Source: Lewinella sp. LCG006
Lineage (GTDB): Bacteria > Bacteroidota > Bacteroidia > Chitinophagales > Saprospiraceae
Length of the DNA: 64,000 nt
Assembly: GCF_040784935.1 (NCBI RefSeq)
Contig: NZ_CP160680.1
Coordinates: 6,615,802-6,679,801 of the forward strand
Reading direction: 5' to 3'
The notes beneath the pieces were generated by a model. The model worked only from the letters and a program-made list of their open reading frames with translations. It ran no database searches and was not told the DNA's origin. Shown piece after piece: positions 40,104 through 41,779 of the stretch; within the stretch, counting starts at the first letter, position 1; the number at the start of each line of letters is the position of its first letter. A program made the translations under genes and the position numbers.

Positions 40104-40781
40104 CTAGATAAATTTATTCACCTCGTGCCCTACAGCTTTCAATTGCTCAATTGCCTGCTTGGGGTTTGCTGCCTTGAAAACACTGCTCCCAGCTACGAGT
40201 ACATCCGCTCCGGCAGCCAACACTTCCTGCGCATTCTGCAGGCCAATACCTCCATCTACTTCAATCACCGTCTTGGCATTGCGGGTGGTTATCAAATCCT
40301 TCAGCGCCCTGATTTTAGGAATACTTTGGTAGATGAACTTTTGTCCGCCAAAGCCGGGGTTGACAGACATAATCAGTACCAAATCAATGTCCTCAATCAA
40401 GTCCGTAAGCAACGAAACGGGGGTATGAGGATTAAGCGCTACCCCCGCCTTTGCCCCAGTTTCTTTAATTTGCTGAACCGTACGATGCAAGTGGGGACAA
40501 GTTTCGTAATGAACGGTGATCACCTCCGCACCTATTTCACGAAAAGTAGAAATATATTTTTCAGGTTGCTCAATCATCAAGTGAACGTCTAAAGGCTTGG
40601 TTGCCTGACGGTTGATCGCCTCGATGACGGGCATACCGTAAGAAATATTGGGGACAAACTGACCGTCCATCACATCCAAGTGAAACCAATCTGCTAAACT
40701 TTCGTTAACCAAATCAATGGCAGCACCTAAATGGAGAAAGTCTGCTGCTAAAAGTGAAGGGGCTACTAAATGCTTTTTCAT
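40104..40781 (-). CDS. rpe: Ribulose-phosphate 3-epimerase
   Basis: 225 residues, normal length. Signatures: APSLLAADFLHLG, WFHLDVMDGQFVPNISYG with metal-binding His and Asp, LDVHLMIEQPEKYI, MSVNPGFGGQKFI and IEVDGGIGLQNA. It interconverts ribulose-5-phosphate and xylulose-5-phosphate in the pentose phosphate pathway. It is followed on the same strand by the TonB receptor after 99 nt. Confidence 0.95.
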   Translation of the reverse strand: MKKHLVAPSLLAADFLHLGAAIDLVNESLADWFHLDVMDGQFVPNISYGMPVIEAINRQATKPLDVHLMIEQPEKYISTFREIGAEVITVHYETCPHLHRTVQQIKETGAKAGVALNPHTPVSLLTDLIEDIDLVLIMSVNPGFGGQKFIYQSIPKIRALKDLITTRNAKTVIEVDGGIGLQNAQEVLAAGADVLVAGSSVFKAANPKQAIEQLKAVGHEVNKFI

Positions 40782-40824: not shown

Positions 40825-40855
40825 CAAAAAAAACCGGTTGGAATACCAACCGGTT
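40825..40855 (-). terminator. Terminator of unit copy 1
   Basis: The perfect 10-bp stem AACCGGTTGG / CCAACCGGTT (40855-40832) with a 4-nt loop is followed on the minus strand by an 8-9 nt T run. No ordinary gene lies just upstream on the minus strand. Confidence 0.9.
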
Positions 40856-41150
40856 CGAAAAAAGAGCTTTGAGAGGCTATCTACATACCAAAAAACGAAA
40901 CATCCATTGATGTTCCTAAAACTTCATGAGATTATAATTGATCTTGAAAGACAAATAAGTCATGGGATTATAATTTGTTATTAACAGGTGTTTTTCAACC
41001 TTTTGTAATCATGCTTATTTGTTTGGGCAACTCTCCTTCGAGAATTCAAGAAGCTTTTCACTTCCTCATCAACACCTTTCTTCCTGTTGACAATACAAAT
41101 ATGCAGCAAGAATAAGCCGAGACGAAGTACATTTGAGATTCGTACTGGAT
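40826..41150 (-). repeat. Duplicated 325-nt unit, copy 1
   Basis: It matches 41455-41779 with about 14 substitutions or small indels. The differences cluster at the two ends; a core of about 140 nt (about 40864-41003) is identical. Read on the minus strand, the unit ends in a strong terminator. The core carries a 36-nt-spaced duplicate of ATTATAATC (40938-40930 and 40974-40966), a small hairpin AACATC/GATGTT, and two tiny reading frames. One is 15 codons (MTYLSFKINYNLMKF). The other is 8 codons (MDVSFFGM, 40907-40881), preceded by AGGAAC. I read it as a short RNA or micropeptide transcription unit of unknown role. Confidence 0.75.
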
Positions 41151-41454
41151 TAAAACTAATATCGTCCACAAATACAATCAATTACAAATCAATCATTTAA
41201 ATCAAATTACAATCCACCTCACTGTATTTATAAACCTATTTTTTTGAGATTTCAAGCCTTTATTTTTTTAGAAAAAGCACTTAAAAAGCGATAGTGCCTG
41301 AAATATAGCAACATAAACTGTCTATTTTATTCCCAAAAAATGTAACAAAGCAACTGCCCTTTCGTAAACCACGTTCAGCGAACAGTGCCTACGAAAAGAA
41401 TGGAAGGAAGGATTCGAAAAGATTCGGCTAAGATTTACGCTTGAGCATAAGCAT

Positions 41455-41485
41455 AAAAAAAACCGGCTGGGATTACCAACCGGTT
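41455..41485 (-). terminator. Terminator of unit copy 2
   Basis: The stem 41461-41470/41476-41485 differs from copy 1 by a change that gives a U-G pair in the minus-strand RNA, but would give a C-A mismatch in plus-strand RNA. A T8 run follows on the minus strand. This supports the minus strand as the one transcribed. Confidence 0.88.
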
Positions 41486-41779
41486 TGAAAAAGAGCTTTG
41501 AGAGGCTATCTACATACCAAAAAACGAAACATCCATTGATGTTCCTAAAACTTCATGAGATTATAATTGATCTTGAAAGACAAATAAGTCATGGGATTAT
41601 AATTTGTTATTAACAGGTGTTTTTCAACCTTTCGTAGTCATGCTTATTTGTTTGGGCAACTCTCCTTCGAGAATTCAAGAAGCTTTTCACTTCCTCATCA
41701 ACACCTTTTCTCCTGTTGACAATACAAATATGCGGTAAGAATCAGCTGGGATGAAGTACATTTGAGATTCGTACTGGAT
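41455..41779 (-). repeat. Duplicated 325-nt unit, copy 2
   Basis: Second copy, direct orientation, offset by 629 nt from copy 1. Both tiny frames (15 codons; MDVSFFGM at 41536-41510) are unchanged. The 66-codon frame that crosses copy 1 is broken here by a TGA (41744-41742) and has no start, so that longer frame is not the conserved product. Confidence 0.75.

Follow-up and report, generated by a model that had tools for sequence, protein, structure and literature searches.

What are the two long direct repeats in the window, i.e., the whole stretch of 64,000 nucleotides of the Lewinella sp. LCG006 genome analysed here? A sequence-only reading had described them as a duplicated transcription unit of 325 nt on the minus strand, with direct copies 629 nt apart. 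The copies do start 629 nt apart (40826-41125 and 41455-41754), and they align without gaps at 93% identity over 300 nt. BLAST retrieved these two as the only full copies in the 7.5-Mb single-contig genome (95% identity, 328 nt). Judging from their predicted anatomy, the repeats are very probably tandem copies of a small-RNA gene family, whose product we call B-RNA. The features, all on the minus strand, are the following:

40104-40781, minus strand: rpe, ribulose-phosphate 3-epimerase (named from sequence), downstream neighbour of copy 1
40830-41085, minus strand: small-RNA gene, copy 1; predicted transcript of ~255 nt, 5' end approximate (promoter element, covarying hairpins, terminator)
41459-41714, minus strand: small-RNA gene, copy 2; predicted transcript of ~255 nt, 5' end approximate (anatomy as in copy 1)
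41091-41102, minus strand: predicted promoter -7 element ATATTTGTATTG, copy 1 (same string upstream of motif B at other loci)
41720-41731, minus strand: predicted promoter -7 element ATATTTGTATTG, copy 2 (same string upstream of motif B at other loci)
40960-40979, minus strand: distal motif A, copy 1, AACAAATTATAATCCCATGA; complementary to A' in the 3'UTR of C and in A'-type RNAs
41589-41608, minus strand: distal motif A, copy 2 (complementarity to A')
40924-40940, minus strand: proximal motif A, copy 1, CAATTATAATCTCATGA; complementary to A', possible helix H0 with motif B
41553-41569, minus strand: proximal motif A, copy 2 (complementarity to A')
40897-40916, minus strand: hairpin H1, copy 1, GGAACATC AATG GATGTTTC, then a U-run (covariation)
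41526-41545, minus strand: hairpin H1, copy 2 (terminator scan, covariation)
40867-40889, minus strand: motif B, copy 1, GGTATGTAGATAGCCTCTCAAAG; conservation runs on as CTCTTT to 40861
41496-41518, minus strand: motif B, copy 2 (26-mer search)
40831-40856, minus strand: terminator hairpin H2, copy 1, then a T-run (terminator scan, covariation)
41460-41486, minus strand: terminator hairpin H2, copy 2, then a T-run (terminator scan, covariation)

Read in the direction of the minus strand, each unit thus has the -7 element, then a 5' part that varies, motif A in up to two copies (AATTATAATCYCATGA; RNA consensus AAUUAUAAUCYCAUGA) upstream of H1, H1 itself, the U-run, motif B and the terminator H2. 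Motif B, between H1 and the terminator, is the invariant core (RNA form GGUAUGUAGAUAGCCUCUCAAAG). About a third of the loci have the string ATATTTGTATTG at a distance of 75-306 nt upstream of motif B, and the string also precedes the A'-type and C-type RNAs described below. The -33 element is weak in the window. We found four terminator-like sites where 0.8 were expected; two of these are H1 with its U-run. Both copies end in a minus-strand terminator, as first claimed (40856-40831 and 41486-41460). The promoter elements are predicted at ~41091-41102 and ~41720-41731 instead of the suggested ~41150 and ~41780, and the transcript would be of ~255 nt, shorter than the initial proposal. The units have the general features of the small-RNA class: a predicted promoter and an intrinsic terminator of their own, an apparently non-coding sequence, and no fixed downstream gene.

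The strand assignment was upheld by the stems. The copies differ in the terminator stem by a change from U-A to U-G in the minus-strand RNA, which had been read, correctly, as compatible with pairing only on that strand. Interior stem mismatches read on the minus strand in 77 relatives gave 97 G.U against 24 A.C (p=1e-11). Since G.U wobbles outnumber A.C, the RNA should be the minus strand. Covariance analysis had been suggested as a check; it showed that both H1 and the terminator covary (77 sequences). All nine pairs of H1 have two-sided changes, and its stem ranges from GGAACATC/GATGTTTC to GAGCCGAC/GTCGGCTC with pairing kept. Over H1 and H2 together, 91.3% of the cells were paired, against 81.4% in shuffles, and none of the 500 shuffles matched this value. 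Two-sided changes occurred in 16 of the 19 pairs, with 197 cells changed on both sides, and pairing fell to 33-55% when partners were slid by 1-3 columns. The candidate helix H0, between the proximal motif A and the 5' half of motif B, was 85% paired, but two-sided change is impossible there.

A search for further copies in relatives had been suggested, and they are many. When a 26-mer was searched with up to 3 mismatches (the reversed control gave no matches), 30 of the 150 family genomes, representing 24 of 112 genera, proved to contain the element, with one to at least five copies each. Among 84,980 species, the exact 23-mer was present in 92 stretches of contigs: Lewinella, Neolewinella, Phaeodactylibacter, Flavilitoribacter, Haliscomenobacter and metagenome-assembled genomes (MAGs). 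All the taxonomically labelled stretches were from Saprospiria/Bacteroidota, one record being labelled only "bacterium", and viral contigs contained none. A covariance model run on 299 genomes of the order found members confined to this family, except for two borderline matches that we treated as chance. The window and 20 related loci had no match to Rfam at gathering scores, including 6S RNA and riboswitches; the low-threshold matches resembled chance. B-RNA is a previously undescribed, Saprospiria-specific small-RNA family of marine and sludge bacteria, absent from Rfam. In the 30 genomes, substitutions in motif B are limited to the last 3 of 26 positions, and the flanking CTCTTT is 93-100% conserved. 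Motif A is missing from several B-RNA copies. One MAG labelled only "Bacteroidetes" (G136) carries tandem RNA pairs at two loci (L078, L079), with the variant core end AAAGTTT where others have AAAGCTC. The locus is of interest as a member of an RNA family that lacks annotation, keeps a 23-nt core invariant in at least 24 genera, and has a specific candidate target.

When we looked in the B-positive genomes for sequences complementary to motif B, we arrived at three non-coding RNAs (L290, L300, L323), which have the same promoter as B-RNA plus an A' variant, and at one long gene. Gene C, the candidate target, encodes a protein of ~1000 aa, predicted to be secreted by the T9SS and to comprise beta-propeller-like, DUF11 and DUF7619 parts. 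In Lewinella sp. LCG006 it lies at L358:4732-7833 (~G000:C1:2641131-2644232), and its orthologues are at L359-L377. In the 3'UTR of C, motif A is located at or close to the stop codon, accompanied by a hairpin, the conserved TTAGGTCGTCTT, A' (TCATGAGATTATGATTTGTT) and a terminator. Many orthologues of C carry ACGACCTAA near the start codon and TTAGGTCGT in the 3'UTR, which might allow the two ends of the same mRNA to pair. We scored the presence of C in the same 150 genomes with a non-coding RNA from this search as query, and obtained 28 positives. Both B-RNA and C were present in 27 genomes, B-RNA only in three, C only in one and neither in 119 (Fisher p=2.6e-25, a value that ignores phylogeny). 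By genus (n=112), 22 had both, two had B-RNA only and none had C only. Within one genus (g7) the association was good but imperfect: five genomes with both, one with B-RNA only, one with C only and one with neither. The three genomes with B-RNA and no detected C count against a partnership of the two.

The first potential contact involves motif A. We found its complement A' (TCATGGGATTATAATTTGT) in 107 of the 150 genomes, for the most part once or twice in separate small RNAs, which have a promoter and a terminator to themselves. In 33 of 92 B-RNAs, the sequence preceding H1 can form at least 15 contiguous pairs with the A' of C (shuffled mean 8.8). The longest such contacts have 27 pairs (L115, L122, L123), and the one in the window has 21. 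The complementarity of A and A' could stem from a common origin, which counts against reading it as pairing. Motif B generally has no complementarity to the A'-type RNAs. These form a second unannotated small-RNA family in the same 107 genomes, with one to several GGATATGTTCATGGGATTATAATTTGTT between hairpins. Their loci include L003 and L004 in our genome (G000:C1 ~4761430 and ~3530934-3531338) and L016-L032 and L228-L257 in relatives. One of them (L026:1621-1678) scored E=0.0003 with the U1 snRNA model, below the gathering score, and has a Sm-site-like AUAAUUUGUUG and a hairpin; the score is probably due to chance.

The second potential contact lies between motif B and the coding sequence of C. 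We aligned the codons of 20 C genes picked by their 3' module and not by motif B. The segment encoding (E)LRGYP ranked first among 879 six-codon windows for excess synonymous identity. LRGYP used the same codon in 77% of cases, against 27% expected, and is coded TTG AGA GGC TAT CC, a stretch that includes the motif-B complement. The summed length of this complement over the 20 genes was 194, whereas resampling of synonymous codons gave a mean of 114 and a maximum of 144; no other window of C was comparable in the same resampling. Nucleotide conservation extends beyond the complement (CCC AAA GGC), and further constraint would therefore act at this segment. In three genomes (G004, G023, G130), the complement in the C gene is reduced to 0-8 nt, and an adjacent non-coding C-type RNA retains 13, 10 and 11 nt of it, respectively. 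Two more genomes have relevant RNAs: a non-coding C-type RNA with a 14-nt complement in G078, and, in G072, a short C-type RNA in which 15 nt match the other half of motif B. Since the complement itself had served to find some of the non-coding C-type RNAs, the unbiased set consists of the 20 C genes, L367 and L390. We considered whether the complement in C merely reflects the coding of RGYP, and rejected this coincidence on the basis of the synonymous-site tests and the non-coding copies. The two contact sites lie in an antiparallel order fit for simultaneous pairing, with the coding site ~0.7 kb upstream of A'. Duplex energies of whole RNAs were uninformative for these long duplexes. Short C-type RNAs of ~200 nt (L388, L389, L390, L396, L398) share the promoter and carry, in most cases, a conserved CCCAAAAACCGAT-like block, together with TTAGGTCGTC and A' ahead of a terminator.

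Taken at the level of sequence, these results make it somewhat probable that B-RNA is a trans-acting small RNA of ~255 nt that acts by pairing with C transcripts. Each copy would have a Bacteroidota-type promoter that drives minus-strand transcription up to the intrinsic terminator. The RNA would offer two antisense surfaces on either side of H1: motif A, pairing with A' just before the terminator in the 3'UTR of C, and motif B, pairing with the coding segment of C or with its equivalent in non-coding C-derived RNAs. The effect would probably concern the translation or stability of the C mRNA, or else titration by the C-derived RNAs. We infer the production of the RNA, its pairing in the cell and its effect from gene anatomy, conservation, co-occurrence and complementarity. 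If the pairing is real, the synonymous sites of a coding region are fixed by a small RNA. Target-derived non-coding RNAs would moreover seem to take over the contact, making the origin of a sponge traceable by genome comparison. A more elaborate version of this reading, which we put forward tentatively, is that of a new circuit, in which a multicopy, two-seed small RNA links the coding region of one secreted-protein mRNA to its 3'UTR, with target-derived non-coding decoys in some lineages. The decoys would keep both contact sites and free the C gene from the constraint of motif B, and the A'-type small RNAs would compete for motif A.

The genome of the window itself fits the pairing less well. 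Its site for motif B in C is degraded (6 nt; TTA ATA GGC CAT), while motif B is unchanged. Motif B must therefore have another partner there, or else pairing is not its main role. Matches to the complement elsewhere in this genome (up to 1 mismatch) amounted to three scattered sites, none convincing. Motif B could instead be mainly a protein-binding site, either in a CsrB-like decoy or in an RNA bound by an RRM protein, with the pairing to C being incidental. Such a site would suit an element whose every base is invariant in paralogues with diverged flanks, and which stays so in Lewinella despite the degraded C site. The genome also encodes one RRM_1 protein, of the family of Bacteroides RbpB, whose binding to B-RNA is hypothetical. 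We nevertheless regard this alternative as rather unlikely, because it leaves unexplained the synonymous constraint at the complement in C, the retention of this complement by non-coding C-type RNAs, and the co-occurrence with C.

Pairing by B-RNA would have parallels among known systems. The sibling small RNAs Qrr (Vibrio) and LhrC (Listeria) have paralogous copies that share a short invariant antisense segment within diverged flanks. B-RNA resembles them in its copies and its invariant segment, but its sequence, phylum and promoters are unrelated. Pairs of small RNAs and sponge RNAs are a general concept. The non-coding C-type RNAs resemble such pairs in that they retain both complementary sites for the small RNA beside a C gene that has lost the motif-B site. 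By this analogy, the C-type RNAs may have a titration role. In Bacteroides thetaiotaomicron, FopS and GibS are multicopy small RNAs with sigma-ABfr promoters, a conserved single-stranded seed (two in GibS) and an intrinsic terminator; their targets encode surface proteins and they have an RRM protein partner (PMC11697453). B-RNA is likewise multicopy, with a Bacteroidota-type -7 element, an intrinsic terminator and two candidate seeds. In contrast to FopS/GibS, its invariant segment lies inside the molecule, flanked by H1 and the terminator, instead of at the 5' end, and its predicted contacts are in a coding region and a 3'UTR instead of at the start codon. As to family membership, the Rfam search of the window and 20 related loci gave no match to a described family model. 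B-RNA may thus work like multicopy seed-bearing small RNAs such as FopS, a likeness in kind and not of family. A literature search on small RNAs of Bacteroidota outside Bacteroides returned nothing relevant. To our knowledge, small-RNA biology in this phylum beyond Bacteroides is almost unexplored.

The copies also carry a trace of their history. An identical middle of ~140 nt had been claimed, and we found ~150 nt (roughly 40848-40998 and its partner). This identity had been taken as a mark of constraint, which the relatives contradict. Conservation over wide distances covers part of the unit only (BLAST in relatives), and the part truly constant across genera has only ~23-29 nt. Lewinella cohaerens has three copies at the same place. 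The 3' end of copy 2 of the window matches that of L. cohaerens copy 1, and the 3' end of copy 1 of the window matches that of L. cohaerens copy 3. Since the 3' ends pair off with different copies of L. cohaerens, the duplication would predate the split of the species. At eight positions of the RNA body the two copies of the window agree and all informative L. cohaerens copies differ. With 3' ends orthologous to different copies, these shared differences argue that an older duplication was followed by gene conversion, which made the middle uniform. The long identity between copies is best read as concerted evolution through gene conversion, and is not in itself a sign of constraint; the short core would therefore be the part held by selection. 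The sequence-only reading had named gene conversion combined with a lack of conservation in relatives as its weak point: gene conversion does lie behind the identical middle, but the core is kept in at least 24 genera. Gene conversion, tandem copies and a copy number of one to at least five could also be expected of a mobile or selfish repeat, e.g., an insertion-sequence end or a REP-like element, which transposition would have spread and recombination maintained. This is very unlikely, given that rpe and its following gene are among the commonest neighbours, where neither a transposase nor flanking repeats were seen, that the hairpins covary base by base, and that the layout from promoter to terminator is maintained.

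The neighbourhood raises another alternative. No adjacent gene was thought to explain the terminators, which overlooked rpe, on the same strand ~50 nt downstream of copy 1. The gene is downstream in ~22 sampled loci of relatives, showing conserved synteny, and rpe and the gene after it are among the most frequent neighbours of the RNA. The unit might then be a cis-acting leader or attenuator of rpe, its terminator controlling read-through. This is highly improbable: copy 2 precedes copy 1, the unit has a complete predicted promoter and terminator of its own, and a leader would always lie upstream of one co-directional gene, whereas other loci have different downstream genes, many of them convergent. 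As downstream genes vary and many converge, the RNA would act in trans, and since loci elsewhere lack rpe, the unit stands alone.

A small protein-coding or decayed gene with a peptide product is hardly credible: copy 1 has a minus-strand ORF of 66 aa whose 3' part is still open in copy 2, but its start is lost there, the conserved blocks lie outside the frame, and the base changes are compensatory around an invariant non-coding core. The frame had been described as broken in copy 2, which holds for its start and not for its end. Of the two products that had been envisaged, an RNA or a very small peptide, the former is favoured, as no start, frame or peptide is conserved across copies and relatives. 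The related non-coding RNAs that we checked contain no ORF of at least 100 codons. A type I toxin-antitoxin system was rejected by sequence inspection, with no conserved hydrophobic peptide at the ATG of motif A.

Many rpe-type loci also carry a divergent protein, R, of ~470-480 aa. The R gene (L358:3243-4658 in our genome) lies next to the C gene and divergent from it, and we aligned 40 homologues of R. No Pfam family matched R above cut-off, and its structural matches in the PDB were weak throughout. In the AlphaFold model (mean pLDDT 93), R is a TPR-like superhelix that is entirely helical.
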